Made by a program: the position numbers and the translations under genes. A DNA stretch of 64,000 nucleotides from an uncultured Bacteroidota bacterium (lineage in GTDB: Bacteria > Bacteroidota > Bacteroidia > Bacteroidales > VadinHA17), in the NCBI GenBank assembly GCA_903824785.1, contig CAIJYD010000106.1, forward strand, positions 1-64,000. Direction: 5' to 3'. Shown here piece by piece: positions 2,772 to 49,593 of this stretch. Numbering within the stretch: position 1 is the first letter of the stretch; each line of letters begins with the position of its first letter. The notes under the pieces are model-generated. The model had not been told where the DNA came from. It saw nothing but the letters and a program-made list of their open reading frames with translations, and ran no database searches.

Positions 2772-4091
2772 TTATTTAAAGTTCATCTCCAGATCCCTTG
2801 CCCACGACAACCTCTCTTCGGCAGAGTATTGCCAAGGTGCTCCATTGTTTTCAATGTTACTGAAGACTGCTTTAAGTTCGCCCGGAGCAGAAGCTTCCTC
2901 CATAACCAGATAACGACGTATATCAACTATCAGCGTTGGCTGGTTAATATTAACCGGACACTCTTTGGCACAGGCGTTGCAGGTAGTGCAAGCCCAGATC
3001 TCCTCTTCTGAGATATAATCCCTTAGAAGCGACCTGTTATCACTGAAATCCCTTCCGTTCTTAACCATCAGGGGACCTTTCTCTTTCATCCTTGCCCGGA
3101 GGTCCATCATAACCTTTCTGGGCGAGAGCTTCTTGCCGGTAATATTTGCAGGACAAACAGATGTACACCTGCCACACTCGGTACAGGCGAGAGAATCAAA
3201 GTAATTTTTCCAGGAAGCATCTTCCGCATCCTTTACACCAAACCGTTCAACCGGAGCATCTGAAGGCTGAGCTGCAAATGCTGTTGCAGGATCGAGCATA
3301 AGCTTAACCTCTCTGGTAATACTATCCATGTTGGGAAGCTTACCGAGAGGTTCAAGCCGTGACAGAAAAACATTCGGCACAGACATGAACACATGGAAAT
3401 GTTTTGAATATGGAAGATAGTTGGCAAAGAGGAATATCCCAAGTATATGAGTCCACCAGGAACCCTCGTATAACAGTCTGAAACCACCTGCAGAAAGGTC
3501 AGGTAAAAGATTAAAAAGAAGAGTTCCGATCGGGTAAATCCCATAGATTGGTTCTTCAGTAATAGTCTGGTATCCGATATATCCGGCATTCATTGCCAGA
3601 AGGGATACCATCAGTAAGAGTATAAATGAAAGAGAGATATTTGCATCGGTATGCGATCGTCTCTTCATTTCAGTTCCTTCAAAACGTTTAATATGAAAAA
3701 AGAGACGGCGACTCAAGAAAATGATTATTGAAATGGCGACCAGAAGGGCAAAGAGATCTCCTGAGGCTATTATTATATTATATACCGGACCAAGAAATCT
3801 GAGAACTCTCTCTGAACCTGTCAAACCGTCGATAACCATCTCGAGGCTTCCGAAAAGTATCACACAAAAGCCCCAGAAAACCAGAGCGTGAAAGAAACCC
3901 AATACCGGCTTCCGGAATATTTTTGTCTGACCGAAGGCAACAGTAAGCATGATACTGATTCTTTTGCCAAAGTCCTTTATGGGAAATGCCGGTCTTGTAA
4001 ATTTAAAGAAACTGACGATCCTCTTAACTGTATAAGAGAATATTCCAATAGTTACAAGCAGCGTAATTGCAAATACTATCTGTTTTACCAT
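2772..4091 (-). CDS. Membrane ferredoxin/NarI-like Fe-S oxidoreductase subunit
   Basis: A 439-residue protein with an N-terminal half of about six hydrophobic segments resembling a cytochrome b (NarI/HdrE-like) domain, followed by a cytoplasmic dicluster ferredoxin domain. The motifs CTECGRCTSVCP (from residue 303) and CTTCNACAKECP (from 368) are two complete CX2CX2CX3C cluster-binding sites, as in HdrC/GlpC. The end, RLSWARDL, is typical of this family. Its neighbours are ETF on one side and an HdrB-like subunit on the other. The inference is a membrane complex that takes electrons from reduced ETF and passes them to menaquinone, replacing the ETF:quinone oxidoreductase of mitochondria. Which histidines bind haem was not assigned. 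Confidence 0.87.
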   Translation of the reverse strand: MVKQIVFAITLLVTIGIFSYTVKRIVSFFKFTRPAFPIKDFGKRISIMLTVAFGQTKIFRKPVLGFFHALVFWGFCVILFGSLEMVIDGLTGSERVLRFLGPVYNIIIASGDLFALLVAISIIIFLSRRLFFHIKRFEGTEMKRRSHTDANISLSFILLLMVSLLAMNAGYIGYQTITEEPIYGIYPIGTLLFNLLPDLSAGGFRLLYEGSWWTHILGIFLFANYLPYSKHFHVFMSVPNVFLSRLEPLGKLPNMDSITREVKLMLDPATAFAAQPSDAPVERFGVKDAEDASWKNYFDSLACTECGRCTSVCPANITGKKLSPRKVMMDLRARMKEKGPLMVKNGRDFSDNRSLLRDYISEEEIWACTTCNACAKECPVNINQPTLIVDIRRYLVMEEASAPGELKAVFSNIENNGAPWQYSAEERLSWARDLEMNFK

Positions 4092-42151: not shown

Positions 42152-43003
42152 TCACAAAGGTTTGGAGGAGTCCATAATACAGCGAACGGAAAACCCGTTT
42201 TCCCTGGTATGATAATCCCTGAAGACATGACTGTAATAGTAGCCCATATAGTAATGCCATGCATTGTTATCATCGTTCCCTGTTGAGCTCCACCAGCTGC
42301 AGTATGTACCAACGTGGAAGAACTCGCCTGTATCAGTTCGGTAACCGCCGGGGCGAGCTGTAAAACCACTCTCATTGGTTGCTTTTATTTTCGTCTTCTG
42401 CCAGTGTAGCGTACCGGTTTCCTTAATTTTTACACCTGCATCGCTTACTCCTCCCAGATAATTTAATAGCACGATCCACTCATTATCGCTGGGGATATGC
42501 CAACCTGCCGGGCACAGCTTCCCGGTGTTTACTGCATGCCAGTTGTATAACGCCCCATAAACATTTTTATAAACCGGTCCATCGTTGTTATACCAGCTAT
42601 ATCCGGGCGTCTGAATTCTCTCCGCATTTTCTAAGTCAGCCCGTGACTTTTTATGGACATCAATCATTGCAATTTCTTTATTATCATTAAACCTGGTGAC
42701 TTTTAAATTTTCTGTAATCCAGACCTGGGTACCGATTTTAACTGTTCCGTAACTATTACCATCTGCATCATTTACTGAAGGAACCAGTCTGTAAGGTTTT
42801 TCAATTCGAAGTTCTGTCATAGCCTTTTTATCCGGATTACCTTTTTTAAAAATATCTGCAGGAATGGCCTCTCCTGTTTCCCCGGCTGCAAGTATATTAT
42901 TGCTGTTAATACCGGTTCTCTGAGAACTCAGTTCTCTGGTACCCGACAGGAGAAGGCAGGCAATTATGAGCAGTGCCGCCTTAATTACAAATAGCTGTTT
43001 CAT
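42152..43003 (-). CDS. Exported FISUMP-domain protein
   Basis: A 283-residue protein with a signal peptide (AALLIIACLLLSGTREL) and one FISUMP domain (Fibrobacter succinogenes major paralogous domain). Family motifs: YGTVKIGTQVWITENLKVTR, YSWYNNDG, YGALYNWHAVNTGKLCPAGW, HIPSDNEW, GFTARPGGYR and the C-terminal GFSVRCIMD, with the CPxGWH-type core intact. FISUMP proteins are surface-exposed and of unknown function, often seen as lipoproteins. Three LytTR-type binding repeats lie 234-283 bp upstream, so expression is probably driven by the LytTR regulator encoded at 48841-49593. Confidence 0.85.
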   Translation of the reverse strand: MKQLFVIKAALLIIACLLLSGTRELSSQRTGINSNNILAAGETGEAIPADIFKKGNPDKKAMTELRIEKPYRLVPSVNDADGNSYGTVKIGTQVWITENLKVTRFNDNKEIAMIDVHKKSRADLENAERIQTPGYSWYNNDGPVYKNVYGALYNWHAVNTGKLCPAGWHIPSDNEWIVLLNYLGGVSDAGVKIKETGTLHWQKTKIKATNESGFTARPGGYRTDTGEFFHVGTYCSWWSSTGNDDNNAWHYYMGYYYSHVFRDYHTRENGFSVRCIMDSSKPL

Positions 43004-43235: not shown

Positions 43236-43286
43236 TTTAACGGGCAGCATTTCGTGATGAACGGCAGTATCTGATTAGTTAACGGG
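43236..43286 (-). promoter_or_regulatory. Triple LytTR-type direct repeat upstream of the FISUMP gene
   Basis: Read on the minus strand there are three 9-bp direct repeats, CCCGTTAAC (43286-43278), GCCGTTCAT (43265-43257) and CCCGTTAAA (43244-43236), separated by exactly 12 bp each. Nine-bp repeats with 12-bp spacers are the known binding layout of LytTR-domain regulators. The rest of the 362-bp gap (43004-43365) shows no gene. Confidence 0.65.
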
Positions 43287-43365
43287 AAAATGAACAGGTA
43301 ATATTTCCTGCCGGAAAGTAAAGGAAATATCCTTTTTCCGCTGGCGCGGATTTGTGAAAGGCGCT

Positions 43366-45453
43366 CTATGTTTTGCTGCCAGGGAATGTAAAATGAAATA
43401 CCGACCCCTTGCCATAAACACTTTCAACCCAGATAGCACCTCCGTGTTTTTCTGCAAGTTCTTTACAAATCAATAATCCCAGACCTGTTCCTGTTTCTCC
43501 TTCTGTTCCGGTTGTTGTATTTATTTGCGAAATGTCGAACAGACCGGCTAATGTTTCATGTTTTATCCCCAATCCATTGTCAGAAACCGAAATTGTAACA
43601 TTTTTTGATTTTTGTTCTGCTGAAATATTTATGGCTCCATCCATATTAGTAAATTTTATTGCATTCGAAACAAGATTACGGATAATAGTTTTCAGCATAT
43701 CGGTATCAGCAAAGATTGTTGTCTCTTCCTTCACCAAAACGGATAAGACGATTCTCTTTGCCTCAGCCTCCGGGGTAAGAAATTTAATACAATCCAGACA
43801 TGTCTCTTTCAGATTGAGGTTTTGCGGTCTGAATGGAATTTTTCCAAATTGCGATCTTGACCAGATGAGGATGTCTTCCTGCAGATTATGTGCCTTAATT
43901 GCTGACTGATTAATGTGTTTCGCGATAACTTCAATTTCATCCTGATCATAAGTACGGATGTTTTCCTTTAACAATTCTGATAAGCCCAGAAGTGCATTGA
44001 AAGGGCTCCGCAAATCGTGACCGAGAATTGATAAAAAACGATCTTTGTCGGAATTGAGTTTCTGAAGTTCGAGGTTCTGGTTTTTAATCAACAGTTCAGC
44101 CCTTTTCCGCTCCGTGACATCAGTTGTAACGATAACACATTTGGCGTCAGGTAGTGATATCGGAGCTGCACTCACCTCCGTCCAGATTGTGTTTCCGTCG
44201 TCCTTCACTATTCCCACTTCAACATTACGTATAACTCTCTGTTCATCTATTGCGAGGGAGCTTGGAAATTCCGCGAACTTCATCGGCTTGTTATCCTGAT
44301 TAATATATTTTCTATCCGTAAACAATCCGTTCTGCAAACTATCTTCCGATATTCCTAAGATATGAGACAAGGCCTTATTAGACTCGGAGATATTCCCTTT
44401 TTTATCAAGAATTGAAACACCCACCGGCAAAATTTCATAAAGTGTCCTCCACTTCTCTTCGCTCTCCATCAGAGCCTTTTCGGCCTGCTTGCGGAGAGTG
44501 ATATCCTGCAACTGGGCTAAAGTGGCAAACGGAGTCCTTCCATCTGATTCAAAGATCAAGGTTGAATTCCACAACACGGTTCGTATTGTCCCATCTCGAT
44601 GCCTTATTTCTATTTCAACTGCTTCTGACTTCATACCTGCCAGTGAGCTATTAATCAGATCCATTGAATTTGCCACTGATGGTGGCGGAAAAAGAGCATT
44701 AAGTGATTCTCCTATGACTTCCGCCTCACTCCGGCCGGTTAGGAATTCAAAAGCGCGGTTTACACGGGTTATGAGGAATCGCTTATTCCATATTATAATA
44801 GGCCCGTTGGCATTATCTATAATATTCTCAAGATATGAGTTTGTTTCGTGAAGGGCATCTTTGAGCTGAAGAAGTTTGCTGTTGGCAACAACTAATTCTG
44901 CCGCAGCATGCTTCCGTTCTGTGATATCAACCATAGTCAGAAAACATTGTTCTCCAATTCCTGTAACAATACCGGTAAGGATAACATAGATTGTATTTCC
45001 TTTTACCGAAAGAGCTACTTCACATATTTCGCTCCTTGTGCTGCTGAATATTTTTTCAAAAAAAAGATTAAAGATTGTTTTAAAATCATCCGCTACAAAA
45101 AGGCCAAACCTGCTCTTTTTGAGTCGCTGACGCTCTTTACAAAGCATCATTGCCCCCGTAAGATTCAATTCAACAATATCACCTTCTCTTGAAAGCGTAA
45201 AAATTCCTGATGGTGCAAAGGCGTAAAGTTCGGTGTACTTCTTTGATGCAATAACTGCTTTTTCTTTTACCAGTTTAAGTTCTTCATTCTGTTTTCTTAT
45301 TTCTTCAATGGAGGATTCCAGCACCTCAACTAATTTCAACCTGTTAGCAGCAAGAAAGAGCTCTTCACTTTGCATCCTAAGCTCTTCCTTGTACACATCC
45401 ATTTCGTGTAAAAATTTCAGATTTTCTGATCCGGAGATATTTCCTTTTTTCAT
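43366..45453 (-). CDS. Soluble multi-PAS histidine kinase
   Basis: A 695-residue kinase from the ATG at 45453, which follows AAAGGAACGA; the frame is open further upstream but without support. No membrane segment is seen. An N-terminal coiled coil is followed by three PAS domains (starting near YTELYAFAPSGIFTL, LENIIDNANGPIIIW and WRTLYEILPVGVSIL), each ending in a DITERK/DITLRK-type motif. The HisKA motif ILGHDLRSPFNALLG carries the phospho-acceptor His (about 479), and the HATPase has NLVSNAIKF, SDNGLGI and TGTGLGL. There is no receiver domain and no adjacent dedicated regulator. Paired LytTR-type repeats (45588-45617) lie about 135 bp upstream, suggesting control by the neighbouring LytTR regulator. 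Confidence 0.87.
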   Translation of the reverse strand: MKKGNISGSENLKFLHEMDVYKEELRMQSEELFLAANRLKLVEVLESSIEEIRKQNEELKLVKEKAVIASKKYTELYAFAPSGIFTLSREGDIVELNLTGAMMLCKERQRLKKSRFGLFVADDFKTIFNLFFEKIFSSTRSEICEVALSVKGNTIYVILTGIVTGIGEQCFLTMVDITERKHAAAELVVANSKLLQLKDALHETNSYLENIIDNANGPIIIWNKRFLITRVNRAFEFLTGRSEAEVIGESLNALFPPPSVANSMDLINSSLAGMKSEAVEIEIRHRDGTIRTVLWNSTLIFESDGRTPFATLAQLQDITLRKQAEKALMESEEKWRTLYEILPVGVSILDKKGNISESNKALSHILGISEDSLQNGLFTDRKYINQDNKPMKFAEFPSSLAIDEQRVIRNVEVGIVKDDGNTIWTEVSAAPISLPDAKCVIVTTDVTERKRAELLIKNQNLELQKLNSDKDRFLSILGHDLRSPFNALLGLSELLKENIRTYDQDEIEVIAKHINQSAIKAHNLQEDILIWSRSQFGKIPFRPQNLNLKETCLDCIKFLTPEAEAKRIVLSVLVKEETTIFADTDMLKTIIRNLVSNAIKFTNMDGAINISAEQKSKNVTISVSDNGLGIKHETLAGLFDISQINTTTGTEGETGTGLGLLICKELAEKHGGAIWVESVYGKGSVFHFTFPGSKT

Positions 45454-45587
45454 TCGTTCCTTTTTAGATAATTTGCAGCGTATTATCGTTAGAAAAAGAG
45501 TAAACAAAAATTATTTAACCTTATAACATAAAGATAGAGGAATTATTATATTGTTAAAAAAAATATTTTATCGGGTTGATTTTGATG

Positions 45588-45617
45588 ATTAACGGGGCCT
45601 GCCAGACAATTAACGGG
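45588..45617 (-). promoter_or_regulatory. Paired LytTR-type direct repeat upstream of the PAS kinase gene
   Basis: On the minus strand CCCGTTAAT occurs twice (45617-45609 and 45596-45588), identical in all nine positions and separated by exactly 12 bp. A minus-7-like TATCTTTA (45536-45529) lies about 50 bp downstream, so the repeats would sit at an activator position. They lie between the stop codon of the sensor kinase gene (45630) and the PAS kinase ATG. Confidence 0.72.
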
Positions 45618-45629
45618 AAAAGAGACTCC

Positions 45630-48600
45630 TCAAATTTCTATTTTTATCTGAACTTTCGTACCGGAGGGCAACCCGTTTTCGTCTAAAAGATCGATAGTTT
45701 CTGATTGAATGCCGAAAAGGGCCATCCTCTGGAATGTATTCTGAGAACCATGAGATTTATGCCCCCTTCTAGTAGCATTGTTTATCTCTTTTGACTTTGC
45801 CCGGCCGATACCATTATCTTCGACTAAACAATAAAGGCAGGAGTCACCTTCCGGTATTTCAAAGCGGATAACTAAATTCCCCTCCCTCTCCAGATGCCTT
45901 ATGCCGTGAAGAATCGAATTTTCAACAAATGGCTGGATAAGCATCGGAGGCAGAAAGATCTCTTCAGTATCAATAGCGGAATCTGTTTCAACCAGATATG
46001 TAAGATTCAGAATACGACGTCCCTCAAGCCCCAGATAAGTTTTAAGGTATCTTATCTCTTCTGAAAGGGTTATGGTGTTTCTGGATGAGTTGTCGAGGGT
46101 CTGCCTGATAAGCAACGCAAACTCAGACATATAATCCAATGATGCTTTTGTATCTTGTAAAAGAATATATTTCTGAATGGAATTAAAGGCATTAAAGATA
46201 AAATGGGGATTCATCTGAGCTTTTAATGCTCCCATTTTTAATTCGGATATTTTCCGTTCAGTTTCCGATTCTCTTTTTATTGCCCTGATCCGGACTTTCA
46301 GAACCAGGTAGATAATTGAGAATCCTGCCAATGAAGCCAGACTGATAAACCACCAGCTTTTCCACCATGGTGGCATTATCCGGAAAGGATATTCAATTTC
46401 AGTAATATTACCCGGAGATGATATTAACCTGCCTCTGATTCTGAGTGTATATCTGCCATTATTGATATATGAGAAAACAGCTTTTGGCTCCGCCGAAAAA
46501 GGAGTCCATTCCTTCATAATCCCATCGAGCTTATAACTGTATTGGGCCTTTGCAGGTTCAGCATATTGCAAAAGATGATAATAAAATGTCAATGTGTTCT
46601 TATTGTAAGGAAGCCGGAACCCACCTTCCGGAAGGCCGGTTCTGTTATCTGTTTTAAATTCTGAAGGCCATTGTGATTTGATATAATTTATTTCCAGATT
46701 GTCTATTATCAGTCTGTTTGTCTCACCCGAATTTTTAACCAGTTCATCGGGATTAATTTTAATCAGGTTATTCTCCGATATTACGAAGATGTTCCCGGCT
46801 GAATCAAGTATTGCCTTAAACGAGAGCTTGTCAATAAAACCATTTTCTTCATTGAAAAAGGAAACCTCTCTCTTCCCGTTATTATAGAATTCCGGTAGAT
46901 CAACCATATTCAAACCTTTGTTTGTGGCAAACCAGAGGCGGTTTTGACGATCAGTCAGAACCCAGCGGATATCCGTTCCTGTAATACCGTCCTGAGGTCC
47001 AATCTGGGAAATAACATTTGCAGAGTCATTCCTGACATTAATGAAATAGATGAAACCGGTATTTGTGCCGGCGATAAGATTGTTAAGGTAATCCTTTGTT
47101 AAAGCGGAGAAAGAGAGATCGGCTTTCTTTCCTAAATCACTAAATCTGGTAAGTTTGCCTGACTGGTATTTAAACAAGCCGTCAGTATTGTTGTATATCC
47201 AATGTATATCATTATCCTCCAGTTCTTTACAAATAGAAGCAAATGAAGCGTTTTTCCTTAACAGAAACCTATCCAATTCTCTGATACCCGGAATAGAATA
47301 CCGCGACAACATATAATAAGTTATTACCAAAATAATTGAATCCTGTTCAATGAAGTATGGATAGCCTCTATCAATGGCCATAAGATCAATGCACTTTGTG
47401 CTGTTTAAATAAGAAATCCCGGCATTTGTCTTTATTAACAGGTTGCCGGAGCTATCCTCATAAAAATTATAATAATCGGTTATTCCGGTTTTAACCAATC
47501 TTGATAACTCCTCCGGTTTATAGAGCGACCCCGGGGGTAAGATCTTTCCTTTCAGGATGTAGGGATTGGTATCTTTATAGATCCCTCTCCTGATAAGCAT
47601 ATTGTATTTTTCAAAACTACCTGATGGATCAGTATAAAAAGAATATTTTCTTTTTATAAAATCTCTGTATGTTTTTTGGATAACAGTTAATGAAATGGCA
47701 GACATCACAGAGTCGCGCTTAAAGATCCTGTTCCCGGCAGAGATCCACAGGTTTTCCTTTGAATCCTTAAAAATGTCATGTATTAATGGCTTTTCAGGAT
47801 TAATGTCCGAAGCAGAAGTGTATTCTATGCCTGACATTGAATACTGATAAATACCTTTATCCATTGTCCCGATCCAGAGAACATTTTCTTCCTCATCAAA
47901 ATATAAACACCAGCACTCCTGAGAATTCACCCCCAGTTTATCGCTGTAAAATTCAGCTTTATAATTCCTTACTTTATAAATACCTCCCTTTGATTTGTTG
48001 TTACCGATATTCCCATCGTTCCATGAAGCCATCCAGAGGTTTTTATCGTTGTCTTCAGCAATATCGAATACCTGTCCGACATTGTCATTGCAAATGATCG
48101 AATCTTTGGTAAAGAATTTCACACCTAAGATATGGTCTCCGATTATTGTATCGTTGCCCGATGAAATGAATGAACAGGTTGTCTGGTGCGAATGATAATG
48201 ATACCGGTGATCTTTGGGAAGATAACTGAATACACCTGTTCTCGGATTGAAACTGATAAACTGTGGATTTTCATAATAGGTTAGGATGTAGATAACGCTG
48301 TCGCAATCGATAAAATCTGTGACCTGCATAAAATTACTCTTTGAAATTGCGGTATCCTGGAAAGATGTAAATACAGAGTCTTTAAAAAAGGAAAATCCGA
48401 ATTCTGTTCCGATAAGCATCCCATTATTCTTCGGTGAATATTCTATCTTTCTTACATTATCATTTACCAGTCCGTCGGCCGTGGAATAATTATGAAATGA
48501 TTTACCATCAAATTTTGAGATCCCGTTTCCGTAGCAGGCAAGCCACAGATTCTTTTGATTATCTTCAGCAATTGACCAGATCTTGTTTCCCGGGAGCCCG

Positions 48601-48836
48601 TCGTTGAGTGTATAAACTTTATAATTAAAACCGTCAAACCGGCACAATCCTGCTTCCGTTCCGAACCAATAATATCCCTGAGAGTCTTTAAAAATATCAT
48701 AAACAGTATTCGAAGGAAGACCCTCATTGATTGTTAAATTCCTGACAAAATGCTTTTGTGAAAGGCCATTGAAATTAATAAATAATAAAATATTCAGGAT
48801 TGTTGCAGCCCTTATGACAGAGAGATGCAGTTTCAT
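45630..48836 (-). CDS. Reg_prop/Y_Y_Y sensor histidine kinase (LytS-type)
   Basis: A 1,068-residue membrane sensor. A signal peptide precedes a periplasmic double beta-propeller of Reg_prop repeats (GLPSNTVYDIFKDSQGYYWF, GLPGNKIWSIAEDNQKNLWL, VLTDRQNRLWFATNKGLNM), then a Y_Y_Y domain (YSYKLDGIMKEWTPF) and one membrane helix (WFISLASLAGFSIIYLVLK). The cytoplasmic kinase is the LytS/His_kinase type: LKAQMNPHFIFNAFNSIQKY with His878, VENSILHGIRH and VEDNGIGRAKS. Such sensors usually detect glycan fragments. The response regulator gene lies 4 bp upstream on the same strand, so the two form a classic pair. No receiver or AraC domain is fused, unlike hybrid sensors of the phylum. Confidence 0.92.
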   Translation of the reverse strand: MKLHLSVIRAATILNILLFINFNGLSQKHFVRNLTINEGLPSNTVYDIFKDSQGYYWFGTEAGLCRFDGFNYKVYTLNDGLPGNKIWSIAEDNQKNLWLACYGNGISKFDGKSFHNYSTADGLVNDNVRKIEYSPKNNGMLIGTEFGFSFFKDSVFTSFQDTAISKSNFMQVTDFIDCDSVIYILTYYENPQFISFNPRTGVFSYLPKDHRYHYHSHQTTCSFISSGNDTIIGDHILGVKFFTKDSIICNDNVGQVFDIAEDNDKNLWMASWNDGNIGNNKSKGGIYKVRNYKAEFYSDKLGVNSQECWCLYFDEEENVLWIGTMDKGIYQYSMSGIEYTSASDINPEKPLIHDIFKDSKENLWISAGNRIFKRDSVMSAISLTVIQKTYRDFIKRKYSFYTDPSGSFEKYNMLIRRGIYKDTNPYILKGKILPPGSLYKPEELSRLVKTGITDYYNFYEDSSGNLLIKTNAGISYLNSTKCIDLMAIDRGYPYFIEQDSIILVITYYMLSRYSIPGIRELDRFLLRKNASFASICKELEDNDIHWIYNNTDGLFKYQSGKLTRFSDLGKKADLSFSALTKDYLNNLIAGTNTGFIYFINVRNDSANVISQIGPQDGITGTDIRWVLTDRQNRLWFATNKGLNMVDLPEFYNNGKREVSFFNEENGFIDKLSFKAILDSAGNIFVISENNLIKINPDELVKNSGETNRLIIDNLEINYIKSQWPSEFKTDNRTGLPEGGFRLPYNKNTLTFYYHLLQYAEPAKAQYSYKLDGIMKEWTPFSAEPKAVFSYINNGRYTLRIRGRLISSPGNITEIEYPFRIMPPWWKSWWFISLASLAGFSIIYLVLKVRIRAIKRESETERKISELKMGALKAQMNPHFIFNAFNSIQKYILLQDTKASLDYMSEFALLIRQTLDNSSRNTITLSEEIRYLKTYLGLEGRRILNLTYLVETDSAIDTEEIFLPPMLIQPFVENSILHGIRHLEREGNLVIRFEIPEGDSCLYCLVEDNGIGRAKSKEINNATRRGHKSHGSQNTFQRMALFGIQSETIDLLDENGLPSGTKVQIKIEI

Positions 48837-48840
48837 GAGT

Positions 48841-49593
48841 CTAAAGGTTTTTTAAAATATTTTCGAGTTCTGCAACTCTCCTTTTGGAAACTTCAACCAC
48901 CTTGTCATTATCCAGCGATAGCTCATTTTTCATCCTGTCGAACCTTCTTACATGAGTCAGGTTTACAAGAAATGACTTATGAGTTCTGAAAAATACTGCA
49001 ACCGGCAATCTCTCTTCAATCTCTTTTAATGTAGATGCCACAGAAATGGATTTTCCGTCGAGAGTATAAATAACTGAATAATTACTGTCAGCTTTACAAT
49101 AAAGGATAGAGCTGATTTTTAAGATGTTATATCCCTGATTTGCATTAAAAAGGATATTTTTATTCATATCAAGGTCAATAGAAAGATTATTGACAAAAGT
49201 GTCGATAAATAATTTTGAATAGCTGACATTATGCTTTTTGAACCTGTCAATGGTTTCTCCTAATTGTTTATAATCAACAGGTTTTAGCAAATAATCGAGG
49301 GCAGCAAGTTTGAATGCAGTAAGAGCATATTCCTGATAAGCAGTTATGAAAACCACTTCAAAGTCAAGATTGTGCCCAAAATAATCGAAAAGTTTGATGC
49401 CGCTCTCATTAGGCATTTCAATATCGAGAAATACCATATCTGGTTTCAACGAATTTATTGACCTGACGGCTTCTTTTACGCTGGAAACTGAATCAATTAT
49501 TTCAAGATCTTTATCATAAAACTGTTTTACAATAAGCCGGATTGATTCTCTGGCATCTGGTTCATCATCAACAATAATTGCACGTATTTTCAT
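48841..49593 (-). CDS. LytTR-family response regulator
   Basis: A 250-residue regulator. The receiver domain has the acidic pair in VDDEPDA (Asp9, Asp10), the phospho-acceptor Asp57 in MVFLDIEMP, Thr in FITAYQEYA and Lys in YLLKPVD. The C-terminal LytTR DNA-binding domain begins near residue 150 (ILYCKADSNYSVIYTLDGKS) and continues with ERLPVAVFFRTHKSFLVNL and VEVSKRRVAELENIL. It is followed 4 bp later by its LytS-type kinase. LytTR proteins bind 9-bp direct repeats with 12-bp spacers; exactly such sites precede the two genes that follow this pair, at 45588-45617 and 43236-43286. Confidence 0.93.
   Translation of the reverse strand: MKIRAIIVDDEPDARESIRLIVKQFYDKDLEIIDSVSSVKEAVRSINSLKPDMVFLDIEMPNESGIKLFDYFGHNLDFEVVFITAYQEYALTAFKLAALDYLLKPVDYKQLGETIDRFKKHNVSYSKLFIDTFVNNLSIDLDMNKNILFNANQGYNILKISSILYCKADSNYSVIYTLDGKSISVASTLKEIEERLPVAVFFRTHKSFLVNLTHVRRFDRMKNELSLDNDKVVEVSKRRVAELENILKNL

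Follow-up and report, generated by a model that had tools for sequence, protein, structure and literature searches.

Phased CCGTT repeats upstream of a PAS kinase gene and a FISUMP gene as candidate LytTR operators in an uncultured Bacteroidales bacterium

Genes and repeats at the locus

The stretch of DNA analysed here, hereafter the window, comprises 64,000 nucleotides of one contig of an uncultured Bacteroidales bacterium and carries on its minus strand, in this order, a LytTR regulator gene, a propeller sensor kinase gene, a first group of boxes (45617-45567), a PAS kinase gene, a second group of boxes (43286-43236) and a FISUMP gene (Table 1). The sensor kinase ORF lies directly behind the regulator ORF on the same strand, with 4 bp between the two, and their Pfam domains, a receiver and a LytTR domain with a linked histidine kinase, are those of a two-component regulator. 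The initial annotation had placed a LytTR gene about 3 kb away on the same strand, and we located it ~3.2 kb from the kinase-side boxes, which begin 13 bp past the stop codon of the sensor gene. We infer that the PAS kinase likely starts at the ATG at 45453, though its ORF runs from a TTG at 45507. The FISUMP protein matches PF09603 with 136.5 bits against a cut-off of 33.9; this domain (FISUMP, or Fib_succ_major) is named among retroelement target proteins in the available part of PMC4159848. A long tandem array of ORFs, by eye Gfo/Idh/MocA-type oxidoreductase-like and with twin-arginine-like leaders, extends from the last 3 kb of the window (L074 1349-19001, ~C106:61350-79000).

Table 1. Genes, repeat boxes and putative promoter boxes at the locus
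Feature	Sequence	Position	Strand	Remarks
LytTR response regulator (receiver and LytTR DNA-binding domain), candidate binder		48841..49593	minus	Pfam PF00072 2.2e-20, PF04397 1.1e-21
Propeller sensor kinase (Reg_prop, Y_Y_Y, His_kinase)		45630..48836	minus	Pfam PF07494, PF07495, PF06580
Box 1, kinase-promoter triplet	CCCGTTAAT	45609-45617	minus	letter-by-letter check
Box 2, kinase-promoter triplet	CCCGTTAAT	45588-45596	minus	letter-by-letter check
Box 3, kinase-promoter triplet, degenerate	CCCGATAAA	45567-45575	minus	
Putative -7 box, kinase site	TATCTTTA	45529..45536	minus	33 bp past box 3 core; 5/6 to TAnnTTTG
Soluble PAS histidine kinase		43366..45453	minus	Pfam PAS, HisKA, HATPase_c
Box 1, FISUMP-promoter triplet	CCCGTTAAC	43278-43286	minus	letter-by-letter check
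Box 2, FISUMP-promoter triplet	GCCGTTCAT	43257-43265	minus	letter-by-letter check
Box 3, FISUMP-promoter triplet	CCCGTTAAA	43236-43244	minus	letter-by-letter check
Putative -7 box, FISUMP site	TAATTTAA	43198..43205	minus	33 bp past box 3 core; 4/6 to TAnnTTTG
FISUMP-domain protein, N-terminal signal-like segment (by eye)		42152..43003	minus	Pfam PF09603 1.7e-39

Five 9-bp boxes with 12-bp spacers had been described, in one group of two and one of three. All five are present on the minus strand, but the kinase-side group is a triplet as well, its third box, which has GAT instead of GTT, having been overlooked. The six boxes share a period of 21 bp, two turns of the helix, and a spacer of 12 bp throughout. 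Three CCGTT cores at period 21 with at least 14 of 15 matches occur at two places in the whole window, which are these two triplets, and no other period between 15 and 30 gave one there at the same threshold. None of 200 first-order Markov windows contained a CCGTT triplet at period 21. Chance is excluded as the source of the window triplets. The earlier remark that no further phased copies exist is true of the window, but more copies lie elsewhere in the genome.

LytTR-type operators consist of direct repeats of ~9 bp with a GTT core, 11-13 bp apart and a few bp upstream of a -35/-33 element. The window boxes are direct repeats of this length at a spacer of 12 bp, with a GTT core in all except box 3 of the kinase site, in agreement with the LytTR-site layout first proposed for them. 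A putative promoter with an imperfect -7 box follows downstream.

Copies across the genome and their putative promoters

A scan of the whole genome for the repeats had been suggested. The triplet has intact boxes at five places, but exact CCGTT-N16-CCGTT pairs are not more frequent than the reversed pattern (20 versus 37); pairs at period 21 are therefore uninformative by themselves, and we dropped them as a marker and used triplets, or a pair combined with a -7 box, instead. A pattern search allowing up to three mismatches found seven places in this genome (two for the reversed control), and BLAST with 69 bases of the element found seven clear places, including a partial copy at C17:50733. 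A profile built from eight copies recovered those eight (67-94 bits) together with two weaker places on C73 (29-30 bits) and fragments. With ten matches genome-wide at E below 1e-5, six of them before FISUMP genes (C17:7326, C69, C17:50740, C106:43237, C73:75311 and C73:75725), the original notion of a small regulon inside the signalling cluster is too narrow. Three of the other four matches precede the PAS kinase gene, an ankyrin protein gene and a lipoprotein-like gene; behind the C30 copy no ORF of at least 80 aa was found within ~490 bp downstream. FISUMP matches in this genome number 32, several of which lie at the end of a contig that does not include their promoter. Behind the C99:14363 element (L068 13441-14411), the lipoprotein-like start and the main ORF are in different frames by eye, and this gene may be frameshifted. 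At C23:1057-1089 (L267) the initial part of the element is joined to DNA similar to the interior of a gene of FISUMP type, which may be a scar of recombination.

The Bacteroidetes housekeeping promoter has a -7 box, TAnnTTTG, with a TTG ~19-20 bp upstream. Summed over the eight copies, which as paralogues are not independent, the match to TAnnTTTG peaks at 33 bp (offsets 10-64). Seven of the eight have 4-5 of 6 matches at 32-34 bp and C30 has 3, although another offset outscores 32-34 bp in several copies; at the FISUMP site of the window, other offsets match equally well. For Bacteroides promoters, the available part of PMC6193735 gives TATCTTTG boxes.

Related sites in other Bacteroidales

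A comparison with related genomes had also been suggested: at up to one mismatch none of 145 relatives had a window-like element, and the matches in three relative genomes are tandem or repeat arrays. The profile of the eight copies (R1), run over 146 genomes including this one, gave a best foreign E of ~1e-4 per genome; among eight foreign matches examined, none contained a CCGTT triplet and no convincing window-style element was found.

Orthologues of the regulator occur in two genomes, G017 and G036 (57% identity, grouped 100/100 in the tree). In G017, three GCGTT cores at period 21 (C213:3445-3491) lie 15 bp past the orthologous sensor gene; this triplet was spotted by eye post hoc with a changed core, the CCGTT scan there giving a coding match only, and is also listed by a motif-free scan. 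The only other exact GCGTT triplet among the collected loci belongs to a G165 repeat array. By eye, no ORF follows the G017 GCGTT triplet before a terminator-like sequence; the region (L211, ~3100-3491, minus strand) consists of a short stretch and then a GC-rich hairpin-like sequence with a T-run, possibly a regulated small RNA or a lost gene. A second G017 operon, encoding a TPR kinase and a LytTR regulator, is preceded by CCGTT x3 at period 21.

Two further candidates were rejected as operators. The G349 triplet (L341) lies inside an ORF; at this locus (G349:C73, 2663-6558, minus strand) a TPR-like kinase, a LytTR regulator and a FISUMP gene follow one another on one strand, and no CCGTT triplet was seen by eye before the FISUMP gene. 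The G165 repeats form arrays with palindromic parts and have no nearby downstream gene on their strand; at L339 (G165:C36, ~4655) and on other G165 contigs they appear as dispersed CCGTTTAA repeats of 21-bp period that are not promoter-like.

Exact CCGTT x3 at period 21 occurs in 54 of 393 Bacteroidales genomes (this one included), many matches being tandem or coding repeats. Dispersed series of triplets are found in G389, G404/G237 and G313/G453. All eight G389 sites examined have an exact TAnnTTTG at 36 bp, whereas no such box was found at 36 bp from the G313/G453 sites. One G313 locus (L331, G313:C8, 1-1760, minus strand) carries a CCGTT triplet ahead of a small gene, and the protein encoded next has an N-terminus (SYQAVVRNA..., by eye) like that of the FISUMP proteins of our genome; no TAnnTTTG box was found there at the usual distance.

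The combined pattern CCGTT-N16-CCGTT-N(32-37)-TAnnTTTG gave 88 matches (hand-summed) in 45 of the 393 genomes, compared with ~30 for the reversed control, and up to 12 matches per genome compared with at most 2. Our genome has no match because its own -7 boxes are imperfect. We examined 69 of the 88 matches, nine of which lie inside predicted genes and 60 outside, where some will be chance, for example one before a lipoyl synthase gene. Among 58 distinct sites, all preselected for a full -7 match, the gap to the -7 box is 36 bp in 37, 35 bp in 15 and of another length in 6 (35-36 bp in 52 of 58, with 32-37 allowed), and a TTG stands 22-24 bp before the -7 box in half of them (29/58). A third upstream box with at least 4 of 5 matches is present in 10 of the 58 sites, in 9 of them as an exact match; six neighbouring offsets give 0-2. 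Their consensus is tTTACCGTTAACTtatTtaatcCTACCGTTAACTgATTTgttcTTgat (capitals, at least 60%). By arithmetic, the distance from the end of the second 9-mer to the commonest TTG is ~10 bp, the same distance that the available part of PMC6193735 gives for the direct repeats of the LytTR Regulatory System (LRS).

LytTR genes adjoin 8 of the 60 sites but only 1 of 67 gaps taken as controls at the same loci (Fisher 0.013). A cruder count, with two loci truncated ahead of the LytTR gene, a longer overlapping ORF hiding one LytTR ORF and controls that flanked the same LytTR genes, gave 5/60 versus 3/66 (p 0.48). With LytTR genes expected at the density of five genomes (69 in 23.9 Mb), the adjacency has a Poisson probability of 1e-9. 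Four sites lie just downstream of response-regulator LytTR genes (L402, L417, L452 and L453) and four upstream of LytTR-only genes in G404 (L403, L404, L406 and L409, the last with a LytTR match 0.1 bit under the Pfam cut-off); since the G404 genes are alike and L402 and L417 (G404, G237) are related, there are about four independent cases. The LytTR-only proteins of G404 (123-166 aa), each encoded behind a promoter-like site with CCGTTAACT x2, are possibly an autoregulated small LytTR family.

Seen from the LytTR side (30 loci in four genomes), one LytTR gene in G389 and one in G404 are closely followed by a CCGTT pair, the latter being the L402 site, and another G404 LytTR locus has an ACGTT triplet. 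In G225 a CCGTT triplet lies just downstream of a LytTR gene. Among motif-free triplets in the intergenic DNA of LytTR loci, period 21 is the commonest (6 versus 0-4), and a second motif-free scan gave 10 versus 0-2 at other periods from five loci only, both peaks being partly due to short tandem arrays; scans with fixed cores in these loci gave small counts and no clear peak. In other Bacteroidales, then, the same or nearly the same repeats are associated with LytTR genes, but no control of FISUMP genes was seen.

We also considered what lies downstream of the sites in other genomes. The C-terminus is complete in 44 of the downstream genes, and 22 of these encode a type IX sorting domain, 19 of type A and 3 of type B, the latter being one orthologous gene in three genomes. 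Among comparison genes of the same loci, 11 of 100 (a random draw from 142) carry type A; type B was outside the 25 families displayed for them. The difference has a Fisher probability of 1.7e-6 with kinship ignored. Other downstream genes include four LytTR, two MotA/ExbB and one TonB gene. In other genomes 67 downstream genes, a few of them possibly incomplete at locus ends, gave no match to the FISUMP profile, and so the theme of exported proteins is common to these genomes and that of FISUMP proteins local. Besides these 67 genes, the G017 FISUMP gene ~8 kb from the orthologous regulator, which has no triplet in its upstream region, speaks against a theme specific to FISUMP.

Candidate regulators and competing explanations

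The operators of the AgrA/ComE/LytR family share with the window direct repeats of 9 bp that have a C-GTT core and lie 12 bp apart, and the vicinity of a receiver-LytTR gene; they stand upstream of a promoter, which in the window is putative. They have two boxes, whereas this genome has three; the putative promoter here is of the Bacteroidetes type, and the window sites are candidate binding sites. The available part of PMC6193735 describes LRS operons with 9-bp repeats, mostly 12 bp apart and typically 10 bp upstream of the -35 element. It also describes LRS-like operons of B. thetaiotaomicron and B. ovatus, in which direct repeats starting with ACCGG or ACCGT lie upstream of a TGTA/TGTG-19-TATCTTTG promoter beside a LytTR gene, an arrangement similar to the putative one here. 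According to the same part, these repeats are 11 bp long with an 11-bp gap, in contrast to 9 bp and 12-bp gaps in the window, and the partners are a membrane LytTR protein and NfeD/DUF2154 rather than a response regulator and a histidine kinase. An LRS is defined by a membrane inhibitor partner and autoregulation through upstream repeats; in the window the partner is a histidine kinase, and a search with the CCGTT core found no triplet upstream of the regulator operon (upstream of 49593).

Because the layout of repeats and promoter recurs in relatives, at times beside LytTR genes and often before secreted proteins, the element is probably a LytTR docking site. We consider it quite probable that the window triplets are LytTR-type activator operators whose likeliest regulator is the product of 48841-49593; we infer binding, activation as its direction and the identity of the acting LytTR protein.

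Position favours the neighbouring LytTR protein as the actor. It is tentatively possible that the triplets are LytTR operators on which another of the 10 LytTR-domain proteins of this genome acts, or which several of them share, with the propeller system a bystander or co-regulator. Besides the number of LytTR domains, the tree lends some support to this idea. CCGTT-adjacent regulators do not form one clade, an arrangement that we rejected (8 changes versus 8.8 when shuffled, with the window's own row unlabelled in the tree), and their scatter suggests that many LytTR proteins may read a CCGTT core; moreover, the tree places the LytTR regulator on contig C101 of this genome together with the G017 regulator that has CCGTT x3 in front of its operon. 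The C101 operon, however, has no triplet upstream, and the short distance between sensor gene and triplet in the window (13 bp) is matched at the orthologous G017 sensor (15 bp), both of which speak against another actor.

A further question is how far the repeats mark common descent. Six copies are 86-100% identical over 59-69 bp including the spacers, and a seventh is 93% identical over 42 bp; the common sequence of the FISUMP leaders reaches beyond the element, and the copies at C17:50740, C73 and C23 are partial or broken. As the spacers are conserved in most copies, duplication of promoter and gene explains part of the enrichment. It nevertheless seems unlikely to us that the element owes its presence mainly to recombination that spread a duplicated promoter segment along with FISUMP paralogues, several copies being relics in decay. 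The kinase element keeps 21 of 25 box columns but 12 of 24 spacer columns (Fisher 0.016), and the FISUMP element of the window 23/25 versus 16/24 (Fisher 0.037), while spacers are kept at least equally in C30 (boxes 21/25, spacers 21/24) and C69 (20/25 and 23/24), and C17, C99a and C99b show no preference for boxes over spacers. Intact copies also precede the kinase, ankyrin and lipoprotein-like genes, and other families, whose spacers differ, show the boxes and their period again, with a nearly constant distance to the -7 box. The same spacer conservation could indicate the longer footprint of a non-LytTR regulator binding phased CCGTT repeats, which we judge improbable in view of the LytTR genes that adjoin the sites in several lineages and of the resemblance of box sequence, spacing and promoter distance to published LytTR sites.

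If the triplets are LytTR-type activator operators, the propeller kinase would switch the response regulator 48841-49593, the most likely actor, by phosphorylation. The phosphorylated regulator would then bind the three 9-bp boxes, all of which would face the same side of the helix owing to the 21-bp phasing, and recruit RNA polymerase to weak promoters lying shortly downstream. Its targets would be the PAS kinase gene, the FISUMP gene and the genes behind three further intact sites, namely another FISUMP gene, the ankyrin gene and the small lipoprotein-like gene.

A wider reading, for which we see the case as evenly balanced, is that ACCGTTAAC-type boxes in 21-bp phase, 35-36 bp before TAnnTTTG, may be a promoter code used throughout Bacteroidales, by which LytTR regulators would control the exported proteome, chiefly type IX cargo, together with TonB/ExbB-type and LytTR genes; the window would hold a three-box version of this code for FISUMP proteins and a second kinase. 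The literature searched yielded no paper treating LytTR and FISUMP together and no report linking CCGTTAAC to Bacteroid- names. In a search largely outside subscription journals, the LRS-like Bacteroides operons were the only LytTR operators that we found reported for Bacteroidales, and we found no report connecting LytTR with FISUMP or with type IX cargo control. The five Bacteroidales genomes in which LytTR domains were counted have many of them, 7 to 20 each. If our reading is right, a promoter signature readable from sequence would provide target lists for LytTR systems, and FISUMP proteins and many other secreted proteins would gain a regulatory context.
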